NCBI GenBank assembly: GCA_032622095.1
Contig: CP136062.1
Location: 230,592,578-230,656,577 of the forward strand
Direction: 5' to 3'
DNA: 64,000 bases
DNA from: Siphonodentalium dalli
Lineage: Eukaryota; Mollusca; Scaphopoda; Gadilida; Siphonodentaliidae
Under the pieces are notes generated by a model, which was not told where the DNA came from, did not search any database, and saw only the letters and a program-made list of their open reading frames with translations. How positions within the stretch are numbered: the first letter of the stretch is position 1; each line of letters begins with the position of its first letter. Positions 16,453 to 64,000 of this stretch are shown piece by piece. A program made the translations under genes and the position numbers.

Positions 16453-16664
16453 CTACACCTCGATCTCGCATACAAAATAAACATTTTTGCTGGTACACCC
16501 TTCGTGTTCATAAAAGCAGCCCGTGGTGATGTATATACAGTCCTTGGAGTTGTCCCAGCCCGGCGCTGAACCATCCCAGTGGTACCATGGTAACGGCTGG
16601 TCATCATATGTTCTGAAGTTGCCTGCAGATGAAGCTTTGCTGTCTATCCACGTTTCATAACAAC
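16453..16664 (-). CDS. Terminal exon encoding the C-terminal half of a C-type-lectin-like domain
   Basis: On the minus strand a branch-like TACTAAT and TTATTATTCCAG precede a 212-nt exon that enters in phase 1 (first two bases complete a codon). It encodes 69 residues and a TAG stop. Visible CTLD features, in order: CYETWID; GNFRTYDDQPLPWYHW; DGSAPGW; DCIYI (second conserved Cys); GCFYEHEGC (third); YFVCEIEV (final Cys, then stop). Canonical EPN and WND calcium/sugar motifs are absent (APGWDN and YEHEGC instead), so classical calcium-dependent sugar binding is doubtful. The first half of the fold must come from an upstream exon I could not find. The TSR exons at 31752-54256 end in phase 1, so splicing from them would keep frame and create a Gly codon. 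GAG|GTGTAG could instead be a donor. Co-membership with the TSR gene is inference. Confidence 0.6.
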
Positions 16665-16792
16665 CTGGAATAATAATTAGTACTTAGTTTTAAATAGCGC
16701 TTAATCCACAATGCAACGTGACCCTACCCATATTATTCCATCCGGCGATAGGTCACAGTAAAATACCAAATTATTGTGTCCATCATCTGATG

Positions 16793-16877
16793 AGGATGCA
16801 ATCACAGCTGTAACCTATATAATATGTGTGTGTATCATGAGGAGGATGCAATCACAGCTGTAACCTATATAATATAA
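16793..16877 (+). repeat. Short tandem duplication (~42 bp x2)
   Basis: GATGCAATCACAGCTGTAAC plus CTATATAATAT occurs twice, at about 16794 and about 16846, in the intron just upstream of the CTLD exon. Confidence 0.8.
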
Positions 16878-20609: not shown

Positions 20610-23600
20610 ACTATAAACCTACTATGTGATACGTATGATGTTCGTTGATCCTGTCATGTGTGTTACATGGGGCCTGTACTATAAACCTACTATGTGTGAT
20701 GTGTGATGTTCGCTGACCCTATCAGATGTGTTACATGGGGCCTGTAATATAAACCTACTATGTGTGATGTTCGCTGACCCTATCAGATGTGTTACATGGG
20801 GCCTGTAATATAAACCTACTATGTGTGATGTGTGATGTTCGCTGACCCTATCAGATGTGTTACATGGGGCCTGTAATATAAACCTACTATGTGTGATGTT
20901 CGCTGACCCTATCAGATGTGTTACATGGGGCCTGTAATATAAACATACTATGTGTGATGTGTGATGTTCGCTGACCCTATCAGGTGTGTTACATGGGGCC
21001 TGTAATATAAACCTACTATGTGTGATATGTGATGTTCGCTGACCCTATCAGATGTGTTACATGGGGCCTGTAATATAAACATACTATGTGTGATGTGTGA
21101 TGTTCGCTGACCCTATCAGGTGTGTTACATGGGGCATGTAATATTAACCTACTATGTGTGATATGTGATGTTCGCTGACCCTATCAGATGTGTTACATGG
21201 GGCCTGTAATATAAACCTACTATGTGTGACGTGTGATGTTCGCTGACCCTATCAGGTGTGTTACATGGGGCCTGTAATATAAACCTACTATGTGTGATGT
21301 GTGATGTTCGCTGACCCTATCAGGTGTGTTACATGGGGCCTGTAATATAAACCTACTATGTGTGATGTTCGCTGACCCTATCAGATGTGTTACATGGGGC
21401 CTGTAATATAAACATACTATGTGTTATGTGTGATGTTCACTGACCCTATCAGATGTGTCGCATGGGGCCTGTAATATAAACCTACTATGTGTGATGTGTG
21501 ATGTTCGCTGACCCTATCAGATGTGTCACATGGGGCCTGTAATATAAACATACTATGTGTGATGTTCGCTGACCCTATCAGATGTGTTACATGGGGCCTG
21601 TAATATAAACATACTATGTGTGATGTTAGCTGACCCTATCAGATGTGTCACATGGGGCCTGTACTATAAACATACTATGTGTGATGTGTGATGGTCTCTG
21701 ACCCTATCAGATGTGTTACATGGGGCCTGTAATATAAACCTACTATGTGTGATGTTCGCTGACCCTATCAGATGTGTTACATGGGGCCTGTAATATAAAC
21801 CTACTATGTGTGATGTTCACTGACCCGGACAGATGTGTCACATGGGGCCTGTACCATAAACCTACTATGTGTGATGTTCGCTGACCCTGGCAGATGTGTC
21901 ACATGGGGCCTGTAATATAAACCTACTATGTGTGATGTGTGATGTGTGATGTTAGCTAACCCTATCAGATGTGTTACATGGGGCCTGTAATATAAACCTA
22001 CTATGTGTGATGTTCACTGACCCGGACAGATGTGTCACATGGGGCCTGTACCATAAACCTACTATGTGTGATGTTCGCTGACCCTGGCAGATGTGTCACA
22101 TGGGGCCTGTAATATAAACCTACTATGTGTGATGTGTGATGTCCGCTGACCCTATCAGATGTGTTACATGGGGCCTGTAATATAAACCTACTATGTGTGA
22201 TATGTGATGTTCGCTGACCCTATCAGATGTATCACATGGCGCCTGTAATATAAACCTACTATGTGTGATATGTGATGTTCGCTGACCCTATCAGATGTGT
22301 TACATGGGGCCTGTAATATAAACCTACTATGTGTGATGTTCGCTGACCCTATCAGATGTGTTACATGGCGCCTGTAATATAAACCTACTATGTGTGATGT
22401 GTGATGTTCGCTGACCCTATCAGATGTGTTACATGGGGCCTGTACCATAAACCTACTATGTGTGATGTTCGCTGACCATATCAGATGTGTTACATGGGGC
22501 CTGTAATATAAACCTACTATGTGTGATGTTCGCTGACCCTATCAGATGTGTTACATGGGGCCTGTACCATAAACCTACTATGTGTGATGTTCGCTGACCA
22601 TATCAGATGTGTTACATGGGGCCTGTAATATAAACCTACTATGTGTGATGTTCGCTGACCCTATCAGATGTGTTACATGGGGCCTGTAATATAAACCTAC
22701 TATGTGTGATGTGTGATGTCCGCTGACCCTATCAGATGTGTTACATGGGGCCTGTAATATAAACCTACTATGTGTGATGTTCGCTGACCCTATCAGATGT
22801 GTTACATGGGGCCTGTACCATAAACCTACTATGTGTGATGTTCGCTGACCATATCAGATGTGTTACATGGGGCCTGTAATATAAACCTACTATGTGTGAT
22901 GTTCGCTGACCCTATCAGATGTGTTACATGGGGCCTGTCATATAAACCTACTATGTGTGATGTGTGATGTTCGCTGACCCCATCAGATGTGTTACATGGG
23001 GCCTGTAATATAAACCTAATATGTGTGATGTTCGCTGACCCTATCAGATGTGTTACATGGGCCTGTAATATAAACCTACTATGTGATATGTGTGATGTTC
23101 GCTGACCCTATCAGATGTGTTACATGGGCCTGTAATATAAACCTACTATGTGATATGTGTGATGTTCGCTGACCCTATCAGATGTGTTACATGGGGCCTG
23201 TAATATAAACCTACTATGTGTGATGTGTGATGTTCGCTGACCCTGGCAGATGTGTCACATGGGTCTGTAATATAAATCTAATATGTGTGATGTGTGATGT
23301 GTGATGTTCGCTGACCCTGTCAGGTGTGTTACATGGGACCTGTACTATACACCTACTATGTGTGATGTTCCCTGATCCTGGCAGATGTCTCACAGGGGGC
23401 CTGTAATATAAACCTACTATGTGTGATGTGTGATGTTCGCTGACCCTATCAGATGTGTCTCATGGGGCCTGTAATATAAACCTACTATGTGTGATGTGTG
23501 ATGTTCGCTGACACTGGCAGATGTGTCACATGGGGCCTGTAATATAAACCTACTATGTGTGATGTGTGATTTTCGCTGACCCTGTCAGGTGTGTTACATG

Positions 23601-25475
23601 GGGCTGTAATATAAACCTACTATGTGTTATGTGTGATGTTCGCTGACCCTATCATATGTGTCACATGGGGCCTGTAATATAAACCTACTATGAGTGATGT
23701 TCGCTGACCCTATCAGATGTGTTACATGGGGCCTGTAATATAAACCTACTATGTGTGATGTTCGCTGACCCTATCAGATGTGTCACATGGGGCCTGTAAT
23801 ATAAACATACTATGTGTGATGTGTGATGTTCGCTGACCCATCAGATGTGTTACATGGGGCCTGTAATATAAACATACTATGTGTGATGTTCGCTGACCCT
23901 ATCAGATGTGTTACATGGGCCTGTAATATAAACCTACTATGTGTGATGTTCGCTGACCCTATCAGATGTGTTACATGGGGCCTGTACCATAAACCTACTA
24001 TGTGTGATGTTCGCTGACCATATCAGATGTGTTACATGGGGCCTGTAATATAAACCTACTATGTGTGATATGTGATGTTCGCTGACCCTATCAGGTGTGT
24101 TACATGGGCCTGTAATATAAACCTACTATGTTTGATGTTCGCTGACCCCTATCAGATGTGTTACATGGGGCCTGTAATATAAACCTACTATGTGTGATGT
24201 TCGCTGACCATATCAGATGTGTTACATGGGGCCTGTAATATAAACCTACTATGTGTGATGTTCGCTGACCCTATCAGATGTGTCACATGGGGCCTGTAAT
24301 ATAAACCTACTATGTGTGATGTTCGCTGACCCTATCAGATGTGTTACATGGGGCCTGTAATATAAACCTACTATGTGTGATGTTCGCTGACCCTATCAGA
24401 TGTGTCACATGGGGCCTGTAATATAAACCTACTATGTGTGATGTGTGATGTTCGCTGACCCTATCAGATGTGTCACATGGGCCTGTAATATAAACCTACT
24501 ATGTGTGATGTGTGATGTTCGCTGACCCTGGCAGATGTGTCACATGGGGCCTGTAATATAAACCTACTATGTGTGATGTGTGATGTTCGCTGACCCTGGC
24601 AGATGTGCTACATGGGGCCTGTAATATCAACCTACTATGTGTTATGTGTGATGTTCGCTGACCCTGTCAGGTGTGTTACATGGGGCCTGTAATATGAACC
24701 TACTATGTGTGATGTTCCCTGATCCTGGCAGGTGTGTCACATGGGGCCTGTAATATAAACATACTATGTGTGATGTTCGCTGACCCTATCAGATGTGTTA
24801 CATGGGGCCTGTAATATAAACCTACTATGTGTGATGTGTGATGTTAGCTGACCCTATCAGATGTGTTACATGGGGCCTGTAATATAAACCTACAATGTGT
24901 GATGTGTGATGTTCGCTGACCCTATCAGATGTGTTACATGGGGCCTGTAATATAAACCTACTATGTGTGATGAGTGATGTTCGCTGACCCGGACAGATAT
25001 GTCACATGGGGCCTGTAATATAAACCTACTATGTGTGATGTGTGATGTTAGCTGACCCTGTCAGATGTGTTACATGGGGCCTGTAATATAAACCTACTAT
25101 GTGTGATGTGTGATGTTAGCTGACCCTGTCAGATGTGTTACATGGGGCCTGTAATATAAACCTACTATGTGTGATGTGTGATGTTAGCTGACCCTGTCAG
25201 ATATGTCACATGGGGCCTGTAATATAAACCTACTATGTGTGATGTGTGATGTTAGCTGACCCTGTCAGATGTGTTACATGGGGCCTGTAATATAAACCTA
25301 CTATGAGTGATGTGTGATGTTAGCTGACCCTATCAGATGTGTTACATGGGGCCTGTAATATAAACCTACTATGAGTGATGTTCGCTGACCCTATCAGATG
25401 TGTTACATGGGGCCTGTAATATAAACCTACTATGTGTGATGTTCGCTGACCCTGGCAGATGTGTTACATGGGGTC
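20610..25475 (+). repeat. Large satellite, 60-70-bp unit, about 74 copies
   Basis: The unit contains GTTCGCTGACCCTATCAGAT, GTGTTACATGGGGCCTGTAA and TATAAACCTACTATGTG, followed by one, two or three TGTGATG heptamers. That heptamer number accounts for the ~61, ~68 and ~75-bp unit lengths. Variants (CTGGCAG, GGACAG, TGTCACATG, GTACCATAAAC) recur in groups, which points to block duplication. No coding evidence. It sits between the CTLD exon and the TSR exons, so it would be intronic if they belong to one gene. Confidence 0.95.
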
Positions 25476-25925
25476 TGTACTATAGAGTTATAGTATTGGC
25501 CCCTGGTCAGACACCCCTTACATGACAACAACACATCAATAAAGATGTTCAGTTATGGGGTGAATGAGACCGTTGAGACGATCCCTCGATCTGTTCGACC
25601 ATCCCGGACACGTCGCGCCCAACTACTATGAGAGTTCTACAAAGGTGAAACAAGAGAGCTTCCCATACATATTCACTAGTAGGAAGAGCTTACGGTTGCG
25701 GAAGCACAAGTCATTTGCAGAAATAGTTTAATGAGTTTAACAGCGCTTGCCTTTATACCATATCACACTGGAAAATATTCATTATTTTGCCGTTAACAAG
25801 AACATATTTGTTTGAATCAGAATATGGGCAATTTAACACCATAAGTGTGCGCGGAAATCAATATTAGGGTGAACACAGCTAGTATATATATGTTGTTGTC
25901 GCAGGCGATCGGCTCAGTAGCTGAT
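25476..25925. other. Non-genic interval
   Basis: No gene or repeat structure was identified. Confidence 0.4.
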
Positions 25926-27481: not shown

Positions 27482-28045
27482 ATGTTGTTTACTAGTTTGA
27501 TGTGTGTGGATATATAGTCCTGGTTACTTACTAGTTTGGTGTGTGTGGATATATAGTCCTTGTTACTTACTAGTTTGATGTGTGTGGATATATAGTCCTT
27601 GTTACTTACTAGTTTGGTGTGTGATGATATATAGTCCTGGTTACTTACTAGTTTGGTGTGTGTGGATATATAGTCCTTGTTACTTACTAGTTTGGTGTGT
27701 GATGATATATAGTCCTTGTTACTTACTAGTTTGGTGTGTGATGATATATAGTCCTTGTTACTTACTAGTTTGGTGTGTGTGGATATATAGTCCTGGTTAC
27801 TTACTAGTTTGATGTGTGTGGATATAATAGTCCTTGTTACTTACTAGTTTGATGTGTGTGGATATATAGTCCTTGTTACTTACTAGTTTGGTGTGTGAGG
27901 ATATATAGTCTGGTTACTTACTAGTTTGGTGTGTGATGATATATAGTCCTTGTTACTTACTAGTTTGGTGTGTGTGTGGATATATAGTCCTGGTTACTTA
28001 CTAGTTTGGTGTGTGTGGATATATAGTCCTGGTTACTTACTTCCA
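27482..28045 (+). repeat. 39-bp minisatellite, about 14 copies
   Basis: The unit is TATATAGTCCTTGTTACTTA plus CTAGTTTGGTGTGTGTGGA, with variants GATGTGTG, GTGTGATGA and T/G in CCT(T/G)G. The period is 13 codons, which keeps one frame open. Confidence 0.95.
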
Positions 28046-28296
28046 CTGTTGTGCACGATGTCTTTAAACTTTGTGAATGCTGCATTGTTATCCACTGTCC
28101 ATTACATGCCCTCCGTCACCGGCACAAGTACTCCTGTGAATTTACCCAGTGTTTATTCGTTTTATATAACTTATAACACAGGTTATTGGCTGAGTTCCAG
28201 GTATATCCTGCACGTGACTGACATTTTACATCTGCAAACGAAAACAAAATGTTATGGGAGAATCAGGCCTCAAAATATGGTGCTGGACATTTACAG
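28046..28296. other. Non-genic interval
   Basis: An open frame runs on from the 39-bp repeat through the palindrome to 28519. Its length comes from the repeat, and it has no recognised domain. Confidence 0.4.
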
Positions 28297-31751: not shown

Positions 31752-31922
31752 CTGGACATGTCTCCATCGTGCATGCGACGTTCTGGGATGTACTTCCGGC
31801 ACAAGTAGCTCCGCCGGCGCCTGGTGACGGATTTGTGCACGTTCGTGTCTGTGGCTTGGTTCCTACTCCGCACGTGACAGAACAGCTTCCGGAGTCCGCC
31901 CAGCTCGTCCAGCCACCGTTCA
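31752..31922 (-). CDS. TSR (thrombospondin type 1 repeat) exon, last of the array in transcript order
   Basis: 171 nt, acceptor TTTGAAG and donor GTTTC, phase 1 at both ends. It encodes one TSR module: NGGWTSWADSGSCSVTC, then GVGTKPQTRTCTN, PSPGAGGATCAG and QNVACTMETCPG. Six cysteines are in TSR spacing. WTSW is a W-x-x-W C-mannosylation motif and CSVTC fits the C-x-x-S/T-C O-fucosylation motif; such modules work extracellularly in adhesion, matrix or defence proteins. It differs from the core copies at several residues (KPQ, GAGG, TMETCP). Its 5' intron flank is closest to that of 52426-52596, not its immediate neighbour. No stop or frameshift. It is one exon of a larger gene whose start is not in view. 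Confidence 0.85.
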
Positions 31923-34351: not shown

Positions 34352-34522
34352 CTGGACATGCGCCCATGTTGCATGCGATGTTCTGTGTTGTACTTCCGGC
34401 ACAAGTCGCTCCACCGTTGCTAGGCGACGGATTTGTGCACGTTCGTGTCTGTGATTTGGTTCCTACACCGCACGTGACAGAACAGCTTCCGGAGTCCGCC
34501 CAGCTCGTCCAACCACCGTTCA
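34352..34522 (-). CDS. TSR exon
   Basis: 171 nt, phase 1-1, acceptor CTCTCTCGTTTGAAG, donor GTTTGATAA. It encodes the array's most common module: NGGWTSWADSGSCSVTC, GVGTKSQTRTCTN, PSPSNGGATCAG, QNIACNMGACPG. The protein is identical to the copy at 46713-46883. All six cysteines, W-x-x-W and CSVTC are intact. Confidence 0.85.
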
Positions 34523-37260: not shown

Positions 37261-37431
37261 CTGGACATGCGCCCATGTTACATGCGATGTTCTGTGATGT
37301 ACTTCCAGTACAAGTCGCTCCACCGTTGCTAGGCGACGGATTTGTGCACGTTCGTGCCTGTGATTTGGTTCCTACACCGCACGTGACAGAACAGCTTCCG
37401 GAGTCCGCCCAGCTCGTCCAGCCACCGTTCA
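37261..37431 (-). CDS. TSR exon
   Basis: 171 nt, phase 1-1, intact splice sites. Differences from the common module: SQARTC instead of SQTRTC, ATCTG instead of ATCAG, and STSQN instead of STTQN. The cysteine pattern is complete. Confidence 0.85.
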
Positions 37432-39433: not shown

Positions 39434-39604
39434 CTGGACATGCGCCCATGTTGCATGCGATGTTCTGTGTTGTACTTCCAGCACAAGTCGCTCCACCGTT
39501 GCTAGGCGAAGGATTTGTGCACGTTCGTGTCTGTGATTTGGTTCCTTCTCCGCACGTGACAGAACAGCTTCCGGAGTCCGCCCAGCTCGTCCAACCACCG
39601 TTCA
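39434..39604 (-). CDS. TSR exon, recent duplicate pair
   Basis: 171 nt, phase 1-1. The module is as the common form except GEGTKSQ for GVGTKSQ. Its protein is identical to the copy 1,627 bp to the right. Splice sites and six cysteines are intact. Confidence 0.85.
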
Positions 39605-41060: not shown

Positions 41061-41231
41061 CTGGACATGCGCCCATGTTGCATGCGATGTTCTGTGTTGT
41101 ACTTCCAGCACAAGTCGCTCCACCGTTGCTAGGCGAAGGATTTGTGCACGTTCGTGTCTGTGATTTGGTTCCTTCTCCGCACGTGACAGAACAGCTTCCG
41201 GAGTCCGCCCAGCTCGTCCAACCACCGTTCA
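41061..41231 (-). CDS. TSR exon, recent duplicate pair
   Basis: 171 nt, phase 1-1, same translation as 39434-39604, including the Val-to-Glu change after CSVTCG. It lies in the second copy of the recent duplication. Confidence 0.85.
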
Positions 41232-46712: not shown

Positions 46713-46883
46713 CTGGACATGCGCCCATGTTACATGCGATGTTCTGTGTTGTACTTCCAGCACAAGTCGCTCCACCGTTGCTAGGCGACGGATTTGTGCA
46801 CGTTCGTGTCTGTGATTTGGTTCCTACTCCGCACGTGACAGAACAGCTTCCGGAGTCCGCCCAGCTCGTCCAGCCACCGTTCA
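46713..46883 (-). CDS. TSR exon
   Basis: 171 nt, phase 1-1, common-form module identical in protein to 34352-34522. It is bordered on its 3' side by the ~4-kb extra segment. Splice sites are intact. Confidence 0.85.
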
Positions 46884-49301: not shown

Positions 49302-49472
49302 CTGGACATGCGCCCATGTTGCATGCGGTGTTCTGTGTTGTACTTCCGGCACAAGTCGCTCCACCGTTGCTAGGCGACGGATTTGTGCACGTTCGTATCT
49401 GTGATTTGGTTCCTACACCGCACGTGACAGAACAGCTTCCGGAGTCCGCCCAGCTCGTCCAATCACCGTTCA
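49302..49472 (-). CDS. TSR exon with Gly-to-Asp and two Thr/Ile changes
   Basis: 171 nt, phase 1-1. Changes from the common module: NGDWTSW for NGGWTSW, SQIRTC for SQTRTC, and QNTACN for QNIACN. Cysteines, W-x-x-W and CSVTC are unchanged, so it should still fold. Confidence 0.85.
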
Positions 49473-51092: not shown

Positions 51093-51263
51093 CTGGACAT
51101 GCGCCCATGTTGCATGCGATGTTCTGTGTTGTACTTCCGGTACAAGTCGCTCCACCGTTGCTAGGCGACGGATTTGTGCACGCTCGTGTCTGTGATTTGG
51201 TTCCTACTCCGCACGTGACAGAACAGCTTCCGGAGTCCGCCCAGCTCGTCCAGCCACCGTTCA
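51093..51263 (-). CDS. TSR exon with shortened upstream intron
   Basis: 171 nt, phase 1-1, acceptor TGTTTCTCGTTTGAAG. Changes: TRACTN for TRTCTN and ATCTG for ATCAG. About 440 bp present beside other exons of the CAGTTT acceptor type is missing right upstream (plus strand 51276 joins directly to AATTCTGATGACACTCCC). The acceptor itself is kept. Confidence 0.85.
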
Positions 51264-52425: not shown

Positions 52426-52596
52426 CTGGACATGCGCCCATGTTACATGCGATGTTCTGGGTTGTACTTCCGGCACAAATCGCTCCGCCGTTGCTAGGCG
52501 ACGGATTTGTGCACGTTCGTGTCTGTGATTTGGTTCCTACTCCGCACGTGACAGAACAGCTTCCGGAGTCCGCCCAGCTCGTCCATCCACCGTTCA
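52426..52596 (-). CDS. TSR exon
   Basis: 171 nt, phase 1-1, common form except AICAG for ATCAG. The 5' intron flank (GTTTGCAACATCAAATGATT, then ACCCATATAAATAT on the plus strand) is shared with the exon at 31752-31922, at the far end of the array. Confidence 0.85.
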
Positions 52597-54085: not shown

Positions 54086-54256
54086 CTGGACATGGGCTCA
54101 TTGTGCATTCGACGACACGTTCCAAACCTCCAGAACAAGATAGTCCTCCGTTGCTAGGTAACGGATTCGTGCAGGACCGCCCCTGCCTAACACTTCCAGA
54201 AGCACAAGTAACAGAACAGCTTTCTGTGTCAGCCCATGCTGCCCATCCTCCGTCCA
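54086..54256 (-). CDS. Diverged TSR exon, most upstream in the window
   Basis: 171 nt with the same length and phase 1-1, acceptor TTTTGTTTCAAG, donor GTTTGTTTG. It encodes DGGWAAWADTESCSVTC, ASGSVRQGRSCTN, PLPSNGGLSCSG, LERVVECTMSPCPG. All six cysteines, a WAAW motif and CSVTC are kept, but about half of the other residues differ from the array. Surrounding introns are unrelated to the duplicated units. It is therefore an older neighbour and the likely outgroup of the expansion. Confidence 0.85.
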
Positions 54257-54537: not shown

Positions 54538-57500
54538 CGGGATTCCATTTAAATACCAAAGCATACATCATACATGTCTGGACTCATCATTTAAATACCA
54601 ATGCATACATCATACATGTCTGGACTCATCATTTAAATACCAATGCATACATGTCTGCACTCATCATTTAAATACCAATGCATACATGTCTGCACTCATC
54701 ATTTAAATACCAATGCATTCATGTCTGGACTCATCATTTAAATACCAATGCATACATGTCTGCACTCATCATTTAAATACCAATGCATACATGTCTGGAC
54801 TCATCATTTAAATACCAATGCATACATGTCTGCACTCATCATTTAAATACCAATGCATACATGTCTCGACTCATCATTTAAATACCAATGCATACATGTC
54901 TGGACTCATCATTTAAATACCAATGCATACATGTCTGCACTCATCATTTAAATACCAACGCATACATGTCTGGACTCATCATTTAAATACCAATGCATAC
55001 ATGTCTGGACTCATCATTTAAATACCAATGCATACATGTCTGGACTCATCATTTAAATACCAATGCATACATGTCTGCACTCATCATTTAAATACCAATA
55101 CATGCATGTCTGGACTCATCATTTAAATACCAATGCATTCATGTCTGGACTCATCATTTAAATACCAATGCATACATGTCTGCACTCATCATTTAAATAC
55201 CAATACATGCATGTCTGCACTCATCATTTAAATACCAATGCATACATGTCTGCACTCATCATTTAAATACCAATGCATACATGTATGGACTCATCATTTA
55301 AATACCAATGCATACATGTCTGGACTCATCATTTAAATACCAATGCATACATGTCTCGACTCATCATTTAAATACCAATGCATACATGTCTGGACTCATC
55401 ATTTAAATACCAATGCATACATGTCTCGACTCATCATTTAAATACCAATGCATACATGTCTGGACTCATCATTTAAATACCAATGCATACATGTCTGGAC
55501 TCATCATTTAAATACCAATGCATACATGTCTGCACTCATCATTTAAATACCAATGCATATATGTCTGGACTCATCATTTAAATACCAATGCATTCATGTC
55601 TGCACTCATCATTTAAATACCAATGCATACATGTCTGCACTCATCATTTAAATACCAATGCATACATGTCTGCACTCATCATTTAAATACCAATGCATAC
55701 ATGTCTGGACTCATCATTTAAATACCAATGCATACATGTCTGCACTCATCATTTAAATACCAATGCATACATGTCTGGACTCATCATACCAATGCATACA
55801 TGTCTGCACTCATCATTTAAATACCAATGCATACATGTCTGGACTCATCATTTAAATACCAATGCATACATGTCTGCACTCATCATTTAAATACCAATGC
55901 ATACATGTCTGGACTCATCATACCAATGCATACATGTCTGCACTCATCATTTAAATACCAATGCATACATGTCTGGACTCATCATTTAAATACCAATGCA
56001 TACATGTCTGCACTCATCATTTAAATACCAATGCATACATGTCTGGACTCATCATTTAAATACCAATGCATACATGTCTGCACTCATCATTTAAATACCA
56101 ATGCATACATGTCTGGACTCATCATTTAAATACCAATGCATATATGTCTGGACTCATCATTTAAATACCAATCCATACATGTCTGGACTCATCATTTAAA
56201 TACCAATGCATACATGTCTGGACTCATCATTTAAATACCAATGCATACATGTCTGGACTCATCGTTTAAATACCAATGCATACATGTCTGGACTCATCAT
56301 TTAAATACCAATGCATACATGTCTGGACTCATCGTTTAAATACCAATGCATACATGTCTGGACTCATCATTTAAATACCAATGCATACATGTCTGGACTC
56401 ATCATTTAAATACCAATGCATACATGTCTGGACTCATCATTTAAATACCAATGCATACATGTCTGGACTCAGCATTTAAATACCAATGCATACATGTCTG
56501 GACTCATCATTTAAATACCAATGCTCACATGTCTGGACTCATCATTTAAATACTAATGCATACATGTCTGCACTCATCATTTAAATTCCAATGCATACAT
56601 GTCTGCACTCATCATTTAAATACCAATGCATTCATGTCTGCACTCATCATTTAAATACCAATGCATACATGTCTGGACTCATCATTTAAATACCAATGCA
56701 TACATGTCTGCACTCATCATTTAAATACCAATGCATTCATGTCTGGGCTCATCATTTAAATACCAATGCATACATGTCTGGACTCATCATTTAAATACCA
56801 ATGCATACATGTCTGGACTCATCATTTAAATACCAATGCATACATGTCTGGACTCATCATTTAAATACCAATGCATTCATGTCTGGACTCATCATTTAAA
56901 TACCAATGCATACATGTCTCGACTCATCATTTAAATACCAATGCATACATGTCTGCACTCATCATTTAAATACCAATGCATACATGTCTGGACTCATCAT
57001 TTAAATACCAATGCATACATGTCTGGACTCATCGTTTAAATACCAATGCATACATGTCTGGAATCATCATTTAAATACCAATGCATACATGTCTGCACTC
57101 ATCATTTAAATACCAATGCATTCATGTCTGGGCTCATCATTTAAATACCAATGCATACATGTCTCGACTCATCATTTAAATACCAATGCATACATGTCTG
57201 GACTCATCATTTAAATACCAATGCATACATGTCTGGACTCATCATTTAAATACCAATGCATTCATGTCTGGACTCATCATTTAAATACCAATGCATACAT
57301 GTCTCGACTCATCATTTAAATACCAATGCATACATGTCTGGACTCATCGTTTAAATACCAATGCATACATGTCTGGACTCATCATTTAAATACCATGCAT
57401 ACATATCTGCATTCATCATTTAAATACCAATGCATACATGTATGGAATCATCATTTAAATACCAATGCATACATGTCTGGACTCATCGTTTAAATACCAA

Positions 57501-60500
57501 TGCATACATGTCTGCACTCATCATTTAAATACCAATGCATACATGTCTGCACTCATCATTTAAATACCAATGCATACATGTCTGGACTCATCATTTAAAT
57601 ACCAATGCATACATGTCTGCACTCATCATTTAAATACCAATGCATACATGTCTGGACTCATCATACCAATGCATACATGTCTGCACTCATCATTTAAATA
57701 CCAATGCATACATGTCTGGACTCATCATTTAAATACCAATGCATACATGTCTGCACTCATCATTTAAATACCAATGCATACATGTCTGGACTCATCATAC
57801 CAATGCATACATGTCTGCACTCATCATTTTAATACCAATGCATACATGTCTGGACTCATCATACCAATGCATACATGTCTGCACTCATCATTTAAATACC
57901 AATGCATACATGTCTGGACTCATCATTTAAATACCAATGCATACATGTCTGCACTCATCATTTAAATACCAATGCATACATGTCTGGACTCATCATTTAA
58001 ATACCAATGCATACATGTCTGCACTCATCATTTAAATACCAATGCATACATGTCTGGACTCATCATACCAATGCATACATGTCTGCACTCATCATTTAAA
58101 TACCAATGCATACATGTCTGGACTCATCATTTAAATACCAATGCATACATGTCTGCACTCATCATTTAAATACAAATGCATACATGTCTGCACTCATCAT
58201 TTAAATACCAATGCATACATGTCTGGACTCATCATACCAATGCATACATGTCTGCACTCATCATTTAAATACCAATGCATACATGTCTGGACTCATCATT
58301 TAAATACCAATGCATTCATGTCTGCACTCATCATTTAAATACCAATACATACATGTCTGCACTCATCATTTAAATACCAATGCATACATGTCTGCACTCA
58401 TCATTTAAATACCAATGCATACATGTCTGGACTCATCATTTAAATACCAATGCATACATGTCTGCACTCATCATTTAAATACCAATGCATACATGTCTGG
58501 ACTCATCATACCAATGCATACATGTCTGCACTCATCATTTAAATACCAATGCATACATGTCTGGACTCATCATTTAAATACCAATGCATACATGTCTGCA
58601 CTCATCATTTAAATACCAATGCATACATGTCTGGACTCATCATACCAATGCATACATGTCTGCACTCATCATTTAAATACCAATGCATACATGTCTGGAC
58701 TCATCATTTAAATACCAATGCATACATGTCTGCACTCATCATTTAAATACCAATGCATACATGTCTGGACTCATCATTTAAATACCAATGCATACATGTC
58801 TGCACTCATCATTTAAATACCAATGCATACATGTCTGGACTCATCATTTAAATACCAATGCATATATGTCTGGACTCATCATTTAAATACCAATCCATAC
58901 ATGTCTGGACTCATCATTTAAATACCAATGCATACATGTCTGGACTCATCATTTAAATACCAATGCATACATGTCTGGACTCATCGTTTAAATACCAATG
59001 CATACATGTCTGGACTCATCATTTAAATACCAATGCATACATGTCTGGACTCATCATTTAAATACCAATGCATACATGTCTGGACTCATCATTTAAATAC
59101 CAATGCATACATGTCTGGACTCAGCATTTAAATACCAATGCATACATGTCTGGACTCATCATTTAAATACCAATGCTCACATGTCTGGACTCATCATTTA
59201 AATACCAATGCATACATGTCTGCACTCATCATTTAAATTCCAATGCATACATGTCTGCACTCATCATTTAAATACCAATGAATTCATGTCTGCACTCATC
59301 ATTTAAATACCAATGCATACATGTCTGGACTCATCATTTAAATACCAATGCATACATGTCTGCACTCATCATTTAAATACCAATGCATTCATGTCTGGGC
59401 TCATCATTTAAATACCAATGCATACATGTCTCGACTCATCATTTAAATACCAATGCATACATGTCTGGACTCATCATTTAAATACCAATGCATACATGTC
59501 TGGACTCATCATTTAAATACCAATGCATTCATGTCTGGACTCATCATTTAAATACCAATGCATACATGTCTCGACTCATCATTTAAATACCATGCATACA
59601 TGTCTGCACTCATCATTTAAATACCAATGCATACATGTATGGAATCATCATTTAAATACCAATGCATACATGTCTGGACTCATCATTTAAATACCAATGC
59701 ATACATGTCTGCACTCATCATTTAAATACCAATGCATTCATGTCTGGGCTCATCATTTAAATACCAATGCATACATGTCTCGACTCATCATTTAAATACC
59801 AATGCATACATGTCTGGACTCATCATTTAAATACCAATGCATACATGTCTCGACTCATCATTTAAATACCAATGCATACATGTCTGGACTCATCATTTAA
59901 ATACCAATGCATACATGTCTGGACTCATCATTTAAATACCAATGCATTCATGTCTGGACTCATCATTTAAATACCAATGCATACATGTCTCGACTCATCA
60001 TTTAAATACCAATGCATACATGTCTGCACTCATCATTTAAATACCAATGCATACATGTCTGGACTCATCATTTAAATACCAATGCATACATGTCTGGACT
60101 CATCGTTTAAATACCAATGCATACATGTCTGGAATCATCATTTAAATACCAATGCATACATGTCTGGACTCATCGTTTAAATACCAATGCATACATGTCT
60201 GGACTCATCGTTTAAATACCAATGCATACATGTCTGGACTCATCATTTAAATACCATGCATACATGTCTGCACTCATCATTTAAATACCAATGCATACAT
60301 GTATGGAATCATCATTTAAATACCAATGCATACATGTCTGGACTCATCGTTTAAATACCAATGCATACATGTCTGCACTCATCATTTAAATACCAATGCA
60401 TACATGTCTGCACTCATCATTTAAATACCAATGCATACATGTCTGGACTCATCATTTAAATACCAATGCATATATGTCTGCACTCATCATTTAAATACCA

Positions 60501-63500
60501 ATGCATACATGTCTGGACTCATCATACCAATGCATACATGTCTGCACTCATCATTTAAATACCAATGCATACATGTCTGGACTCATCATTTAAATACCAA
60601 TGCATACATGTCTGCACTCATCATTTAAATACCAATGCATACATGTCTGGACTCATCATACCAATGCATACATGTCTGCACTCATCATTTAAATACCAAT
60701 GCATACATGTCTGGACTCATCATTTAAATACCAATGCATACATGTCTGCACTCATCATTTAAATACCAATGCATACATGTCTGGACTCATCATTTAAATA
60801 CCAATGCATACATGTCTGCACTCATCATTTAAATACCAATGCATACATGTCTGGACTCATCATTTAAATACCAATGCATATATGTCTGGACTCATCATTT
60901 AAATACCAATCCATACATGTCTGGACTCATCATTTAAATACCAATGCATACATGTCTGGACTCATCATTTAAATACCAATGCATACATGTCTGGACTCAT
61001 CGTTTAAATACCAATGCATACATGTCTGGACTCATCATTTAAATACCAATGCATACATGTCTGGACTCATCATTTAAATACCAATGCATACATGTCTGGA
61101 CTCAGCATTTAAATACCAATGCATACATGTCTGGACTCATCATTTAAATACCAATGCTCACATGTCTGGACTCATCATTTAAATACCAATGCATACATGT
61201 CTGCACTCATCATTTAAATTCCAATGCATACATGTCTGCACTCATCATTTAAATACCAATGCATTCATGTCTGCACTCATCATTTAAATACCAATGCATA
61301 CATGTCTGGACTCATCATTTAAATACCAATGCATACATGTCTGCACTCATCATTTAAATACCAATGCATTCATGTCTGGGCTCATCATTTAAATACCAAT
61401 GCATACATGTCTCGACTCATCATTTAAATACCAATGCATACATGTCTGGACTCATCATTTAAATACCAATGCATACATGTCTGGACTCATCATTTAAATA
61501 CCAATGCATTCATGTCTGGACTCATCATTTAAATACCAATGCATACATGTCTCGACTCATCATTTAAATACCAATGCATACATGTCTGCACTCATCATTT
61601 AAATACCAATGCATACATGTCTGGACTCATCATTTAAATACCAATGCATACATTTCTGGACTCATCGTTTAAATACCAATGCATACATGTCTGGAATCAT
61701 CATTTAAATACCAATGCATACATGTCTGCACTCATCATTTAAATACCAATGCATTCATGTCTGGGCTCATCATTTAAATACCAATGCATACATGTCTCGA
61801 CTCATCATTTAAATACCAATGCATACATGTCTGGACTCATCATTTAAATACCAATGCATACATGTCTGGACTCATCATTTAAATACCAATGCATTCATGT
61901 CTGGACTCATCATTTAAATACCAATGCATACATGTCTCGACTCATCATTTAAATACCAATGCATACATGTCTGCACTCATCATTTAAATACCAATGCATA
62001 CATGTCTGGACTCATCATTTAAATACCAATGCATACATGTCTGGACTCATCGTTTAAATACCAATGCATACATGTCTGGACTCATCATTTAAATACCATG
62101 CATACATGTCTGCACTCATCATTTAAATACCAATGCATACATGTATGGAATCATCATTTAAATACCAATGCATACATGTCTGGACTCATCGTTTAAATAC
62201 CAATGCATACATGTCTGCACTCATCATTTAAATACCAATGCATACATGTCTGCACTCATCATTTAAATACCAATGCATACATGTCTGGACTCATCATACC
62301 AATGCATACATGTCTGCACTCATCATTTAAATACCAATGCATACATGTCTGGACTCATCATTTAAATACCAATGCATACATGTCTGCACTCATCATTTAA
62401 ATACCAATGCATACATGTCTGGACTCATCATACCAATGCATACATGTCTGCACTCATCATTTAAATACCAATGCATACATGTCTGGACTCATCATTTAAA
62501 TACCAATGCATACATGTCTGCACTCATCATTTAAATACCAATGCATACATGTCTGCACTCATCATTTAAATACCAATGCATACATGTCTGCACTCATCAT
62601 TTAAATACCAATGCATACATGTCTGGACTCATCATTTAAATACCAATGCATATATGTCTGGACTCATCATTTAAATACCAATGCATACATGTCTGGACTC
62701 ATCATTTAAATACCAATGCATACATGTCTGCACTCATCATTTAAATACCAATGCATACATGTCTGGACTCATCATACCAATGCATACATGTCTGGACTCA
62801 TCATTTAAATACCAATGCATACATGTCTGGACTCATCATTTAAATACCAATGCATACATGTCTGCACTCATCATTTAAATACCAATGCATACATGTCTGG
62901 ACTCATCATTTAAATACCAATGCATACATGTCTGGACTCATCATTTAAATACCAATGCATACATGTCTGGACTCATCATTTAAATACCAATGCATACATG
63001 TCTGCACTCATCATTTAAATACCAATGCATACATGTCTGGACTCATCGTTTAAATACCAATGCATACATGTCTGGACTCATCATTTAAATACCAATGCAT
63101 ACATGTCTGGACTCATCATTTAAATACCAATGCATATATGTCTGGACTCATCATTTAAATACCAATCCATACATGTCTGGACTCATCATTTAAATACCAA
63201 TGCATACATGTCTGGACTCATCATTTAAATACCAATGCATACATGTCTGGACTCATCGTTTAAATACCAATGCATACATGTCTGGACTCATCATTTAAAT
63301 TCCAATGCATACATGTCTGCACTCATCATTTAAATACCAATGCATTCATGTCTGCACTCATCATTTAAATACCAATGCATACATGTCTGGACTCATCATT
63401 TAAATACCAATGCATTCATGTCTGCACTCATCATTTAAATACCAATGCATTCATGTCTGGGCTCATCATTTAAATACCAATGCATACATGTCTCGACTCA

Positions 63501-64000
63501 TCATTTAAATACCAATGCATACATGTCTGGACTCATCATTTAAATACCAATGCATACATGTCTGGACTCATCATTTAAATACCAATGCATTCATGTCTGG
63601 ACTCATCATTTAAATACCAATGCATACATGTCTCGACTCATCATTTAAATACCAATGCATACATGTCTGGACTCATCATTTAAATACCAATGCATACATG
63701 TCTGGACTCATCATTTAAATACCAATGCATACATGTCTGGACTCATCGTTTAAATACCAATGCATACATGTCTGGACTCATCATTTAAATACCATGCATA
63801 CATGTCTGCACTCATCATTTAAATACCAATGCATACATGTCTGGAATCATCATTTGAATACCAATGCATACATGTCTGGACTCATCGTTTAAATACCAAT
63901 GCATACATGTCTGCACTCATCATTTAAATACCAATGCATATATGTCTGCACTCATCATTTAAATACCAATACATACATGTCTGGACTCATCATTTAAATA
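54538..64000 (+). repeat. 35-bp satellite with higher-order repeats, about 270 copies, runs off the window
   Basis: The unit is ATTTAAATACCAATGCATAC followed by ATGTCTGGACTCATC (35 bp), with G/C variants at TCTG(G/C)AC or TCTCGAC. A 29-bp form lacks TTAAAT. The first units carry an 8-bp insertion (CATACATCATACATG). Private variants recur in order at long distance, for example CAATCCATAC at 56169, 58891, 60907 and 63163, and GCTCAC at 56523, 59175 and 61156. This shows higher-order blocks of about 2.0-2.7 kb. Short open frames (65 codons) are artefacts. If the TSR gene continues upstream, this lies in its intron. Confidence 0.95.

Follow-up and report, generated by a model that had tools for sequence, protein, structure and literature searches.

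Organization of the locus

The DNA analysed here (the window, a stretch of 64,000 nucleotides from the mollusc Siphonodentalium dalli) carries ten TSR exons on its minus strand, followed on the same strand by two exons that correspond to the halves of a CTLD (Table 1). Each TSR exon is 171 nt long, starts in phase 1 (AG/TG, where the slash marks the exon boundary) and ends in phase 1 (CCA G/gt). With the Pfam model PF00090 (TSP_1, cut-off 21.6 bits), the common type of repeat scores 39.4 bits and the divergent first exon 31.5 bits. The make-up of the array points to a multiplication of its units, across 31752-54256, by recent and repeated tandem duplication. In terms of DNA identity, 8 of the 10 exons are 95-100% identical to the copy at 39434, and the flanking intron is 93-100% identical in several of them and not in others.

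Upstream of the array, on the minus strand of C2 and ~2 kb past the end of the window, there is a Pro/Thr-rich open stretch of low complexity, flanked on either side by plausible phase-1 splice sites, which could be a candidate mucin-like exon of the TSR gene. Large tandem arrays of short units are also found within or between the putative introns (54611-64000, 20612-25484 and 27489-28041), comprising ~270 copies of a 35-bp unit and ~75 copies of a 68-bp unit, while a 39-bp array stands at the donor of the first CTLD exon and is longer in the C5 copy. In the whole genome (2.2 Gb, 9 contigs), first-look searches returned ~1100 Lectin_C and ~1700 TSR candidates, suggesting that both families are large in this species.

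Table 1. Exons and frame changes of the window, and the two CTLD exons of the related C8 locus
Feature	Position	Strand	Basis
Terminal exon, C-terminal half of CTLD, TAG stop	16453..16664	-	Frame, CTLD profiles, paralogue-conserved acceptor
CTLD first-half exon, DVKCQSRAGYTWNSANNLCYKLYKTNKHWVNSQEY..	28041..28231	-	C5 homologue; acceptor TTTGCAG/AT (phase 1), donor GGAA/GTAAGT
Second 1-nt insertion relative to C5	28100 (approximate)	-	Pairwise alignment
First 1-nt insertion relative to C5	28134 (approximate)	-	Pairwise alignment; in-frame TGA follows after ..EYLCR
TSR exon, closest to CTLD	31752..31922	-	Phase and length; TSR type matches Pfam TSP_1
TSR exon	34352..34522	-	Phase and length
TSR exon	37261..37431	-	Phase and length
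TSR exon	39434..39604	-	Phase and length
TSR exon	41061..41231	-	Phase and length
TSR exon	46713..46883	-	Phase and length
TSR exon	49302..49472	-	Phase and length
TSR exon	51093..51263	-	Phase and length
TSR exon	52426..52596	-	Phase and length
Divergent TSR exon, the first of the window (55% amino acid identity to the common type)	54086..54256	-	Sequence comparison, Pfam
C8 CTLD first half	within C8:104202543-104202788	Same as TSRs	Phase 1
C8 CTLD second half	within C8:104188256-104188504	Same as TSRs	Phase 1

The terminal exon encodes half of a CTLD

The terminal exon runs from 16664 to 16453, and its 212 nt comprise two bases, 69 codons and a TAG stop, with a phase-1 start. The acceptor, the frame of this length and the stop that a preliminary description of this DNA had placed here are all seen, on the minus strand, the strand having been left unstated in that description. 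The acceptor side reads TACTAATTATTATTCCAG/GT; its CAG/GTTGT is common to the paralogues on C5, C1 and C3, with AG/GTTGT on C8. A branch-like TACTAAT had also been described, and the motif is indeed present, but only ~12 nt separate its second-last A from the AG, a short spacing for a branch point. The stop-to-stop frame over the exon spans 76 amino acids, ends in ..GCYETWIDSKASSAGNFRTYDDQPLPWYHWDGSAPGWDNSKDCIYITTGCFYEHEGCTSKNVYFVCEIEV before the stop, and contains no Met, so that, as previously noted, no ATG-initiated ORF reveals it. A split lectin domain can therefore escape both an ORF list built on ATG starts and a Pfam scan of single exons. Relative to its C5 paralogue, the exon shows a dN of 0.042 and a dS of 0.169 (dN/dS ~0.25, on few sites). 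The terminal exon thus looks to be under constraint, whereas a dead domain would be expected to lose such constraint over time.

A CTLD profile search, proposed in the preliminary description as a check on this exon, has found the expected similarity, even though Pfam gave no match for the exon alone (70 residues) at E values up to 1. A single-sequence search of the PDB yielded three weak matches, all of them surfactant lectins. When a narrow profile was used instead (the terminal exon plus its six nearest paralogues), CTLDs made up 43 of the 44 PDB matches, with a best E of 1e-5, and with a wider-relatives profile (149 sequences, best E 5.7e-33) all of the 60 matches listed were CTLD proteins. 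A family-free profile, built from other CTLDs of the same genome, scores the terminal-exon frame at E 5.8e-9; its control, a set of 20 shuffled windows, reached 0.02 at best. The reversed sequence, searched with a related CTLD profile, gave no match. These profiles identify 16664-16453 as the coding sequence for the C-terminal half of a CTLD. A chance open frame that happens to resemble a CTLD would fit the empty Pfam result for the exon alone, but this reading is refuted by the E values of the family-free and narrow profiles, together with the conserved splice site and the existence of paralogues on several chromosomes, and its probability is negligible.

The EPN and WND motifs are absent from the exon, in agreement with the preliminary description, and the columns in which the C7 relative has them read APG and YEH. 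These calcium-binding motifs (EPN or QPD, and WND) define only the sugar-binding subset of CTLDs. Compared with known CTLDs, extra Cys residues appear near the start and in the middle of the exon. For the double-loop fold with paired cysteines typical of CTLDs, structure prediction of this half alone gave only a low-confidence model (pLDDT 50.6, pTM 0.34), which was of too low a quality for a fold search.

The domain is split over two exons

The missing first half had been expected to require at least one more exon between 16.7 and 31.7 kb. Such an exon does exist, 11.4 kb upstream of the terminal exon and adjoining the 39-bp tandem array, but in the window it is out of frame. Over its first 33 residues it is 76% identical to a homologue on C5, which lies ~4.4 kb upstream of a copy of the terminal exon with 93% amino acid identity to that of the window. 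At C5, the first half is complete in one exon (DVECQSRAGYTWNSANNLCYKLYTTYEYWDNAHSTCADDGGHVMTVDNNLAFTKFTEIVHNSG) with a phase-1 donor. When the C5 halves are spliced in phase 1, they score 32.3 bits with Lectin_C (cut-off 22.6) and fill profile positions 4-106 of 107; the domain thus has two exons and lacks a middle one. The window exon pair, with X placed at the frame changes, remains below the Lectin_C gathering score (22.6 bits). The comparison places the N-terminal half of the CTLD at 28231-28041, with a phase-1 intron between the two coding exons.

First halves are present at the C5, C1, C3, C8 and C7 loci. The ORF at 16704-16814 ('TAVIASSSDDGHNNLVFYC') was considered as a middle CTLD exon and rejected, since no equivalent of this ORF exists at C5, where a single exon covers the entire first half. 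The alternative suggestion of an unusually short domain is unlikely in view of the complete two-exon domain of the C5 paralogue and the poor model of the half alone. Many CTLD matches across the genome begin at profile positions 37-40, a pattern that a split of this kind into two exons would produce.

Frame damage in the first half

The first-half exon measures 191 nt in the window vs. 189 nt at C5, and two 1-nt insertions and an in-frame TGA are found in it, while its relatives on C1 and C3 have an open frame. Both of its splice sites are intact. The W..A motif has lost its conserved Ala. Before the first insertion, the comparison with C5 gives a dN of 0.104 and a dS of 0.148 (few sites); amino acid change is thus much higher here than in the terminal exon, which fits a recently relaxed constraint. 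The two insertions and the TGA indicate that the CTLD of the window is probably a decaying pseudo-domain, unless the assembly is wrong at this point. With its first-half exon shifted in frame, the window copy as assembled does not encode an intact multi-TSR/CTLD protein. Decayed copies of the terminal exon have also been observed elsewhere: at C2:211890290-211890483 the frame is broken, and at C5:2465907-2466044 the first 24 residues and the acceptor are missing.

Possible linkage between the TSR array and the CTLD

A multi-TSR protein ending in a lectin-like fold had been proposed from the phases of the exons. The phases are as described: the terminal exon starts in phase 1 and 10 of 10 TSR exons end in phase 1. 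Nevertheless, every CTLD first half examined in this genome is entered in phase 1, and because this phase is generic to the sampled CTLD exons, compatibility of phase alone is weak evidence for a link with the TSRs. The recurrence of TSRs followed by a CTLD at two other loci is a stronger argument. On C8, the nearest TSR array elsewhere has ten exons that are 71-74% identical to those of the window; on the same strand, the first half of a CTLD follows 2 kb after the TSRs and the second half 14 kb further, all in phase 1. This C8 CTLD falls below the Pfam cut-off (15.8 bits). On C7, two TSRs are followed, 3 kb after the last of them, by the first half of a two-exon CTLD that scores 81 bits and retains EPN and WND, its internal intron being in phase 2 instead of phase 1. 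In the window, 3.5 kb separate the last TSR from the first half. The low C8 score and the intron phase of C7 count against the link. Both loci were picked from the nearest TSR relatives and overlapping match lists rather than from a full survey, and on C9, where the C7 TSR exon has a copy, no CTLD was found in the 10 kb sampled.

The link between the TSR exons and the CTLD, which rests on synteny, strand and phase, is consequently plausible and unproven. Of the proposal of a multi-TSR protein with a lectin-like end, the CTLD half and the recurrence at C8 and C7 stand in its favour, while the first half is broken in frame and the nearest CTLD relatives have no TSR in the upstream DNA sampled. 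A limited search of the open-access literature (e.g., PMC7663992, PMC10140915) found no description of a TSR-array protein with a C-terminal CTLD; such proteins may exist in the gene sets of other invertebrates.

Proposed gene product and alternative explanations

The explanation that we favour overall, with somewhat better than even confidence, is that the CTLD halves form the final two exons of a TSR x10-CTLD gene, and that the CTLD is decaying in the window copy. The gene would code for a secreted, extracellular-matrix-like protein, maybe with the Pro/Thr-rich exon ahead of the ten TSRs and the CTLD. In such a protein, the TSR array could form an extended rod or a binding surface, and a terminal CTLD devoid of EPN and WND might mediate protein contacts with a non-sugar or calcium-independent ligand. 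In the window copy, the transcript would end at the TGA shortly after the TSRs; this stop lies ~76 nt ahead of the final junction, a position that would be expected to trigger nonsense-mediated decay. Alternatively, the broken first-half exon might be skipped in frame.

The main competitor, a possible reading to which we give distinctly less credence, is that the CTLD exons form a separate two-exon gene, or a pseudogene copy derived from C5, and happen to follow the TSR gene on the same strand. In line with it, no TSR was found in the DNA sampled upstream of the nearest CTLD relatives (35 kb on C5, 20 kb on C3 and 20 kb on C1), and further decayed copies of the terminal exon lie on C2 (211.89 Mb) and C5 (2.466 Mb). 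The window also resembles C5 at the DNA level over ~16.3-31.3 kb, a stretch that ends short of the last TSR exon, and the CTLD block may therefore have been acquired as a whole. On the other hand, signal-peptide exon scans found no credible exon at 28.2-31.7 kb. Such scans identified none for the proposed joint gene of the window either, a point against the favoured reading; in C2, C3, C7 and C8 they were negative or unconvincing, with only a weak candidate at C5:3433982. The order of TSRs and then CTLD, with a similar spacing, at C8 and C7 also speaks against a separate CTLD gene.

The two insertions could instead be assembly or sequencing errors in a gene that encodes an intact TSR x10-CTLD protein. 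The intact terminal exon, with its low dN/dS, and the preserved splice sites on either side of the first-half exon would agree with this, but the insertions lie outside long homopolymers, and both the higher dN of the first half and the lost Ala are as expected under relaxed constraint; errors of this kind are therefore considered unlikely. Much less probable is that the last TSR splices directly to the terminal exon, leaving a half-CTLD tail. All the exons involved are in phase 1, so the frame would be kept, and the terminal exon appears constrained. However, this half would have neither the first helices nor the N-terminal conserved Cys, all five related loci have a first half, and the half-domain was not modelled with confidence, which makes a short functional domain unlikely. 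That the constrained terminal exon has been reused in such a form as a new Cys-rich C-terminal tail, with half of a lectin domain serving as a module, is more improbable still.

If the favoured reading holds, the intact C5, C8 and C7 copies and the broken window copy make up a natural series in which the joining of phase-1 modules to recently expanded TSR arrays, and their subsequent loss, can be studied.

Comparison with known systems

TSR and CTLD are both ordinary animal extracellular domains, and the window holds known modules, one of them in a decayed copy. Like known TSR arrays (PF00090), that of the window shows the WxxW and CSxTC pattern, here in ten phase 1-1 exons; it differs from them in that most repeats are very recent, near-identical copies and in that a CTLD follows downstream. 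The CTLD matches the known domains of Pfam PF00059 (Lectin_C), represented in the PDB by LY75/DEC-205, CD23, surfactant protein D and the mannose receptor family, in the order W, W, C, C, C and in the ..YFVCE end. In contrast to those domains, the window CTLD has no EPN/WND calcium and sugar motifs, and the first half of the window copy is broken in frame. The closest parallels lie within the same genome, at the C8 (~104.19-104.22 Mb) and C7 (~204.06-204.07 Mb) loci, where, as in the window, TSRs are followed on one strand by two CTLD exons, the first of which is entered in phase 1. Unlike the window, both have an open frame; the CTLD of C8 is divergent, while in that of C7 EPN and WND are retained and the internal intron is in phase 2.
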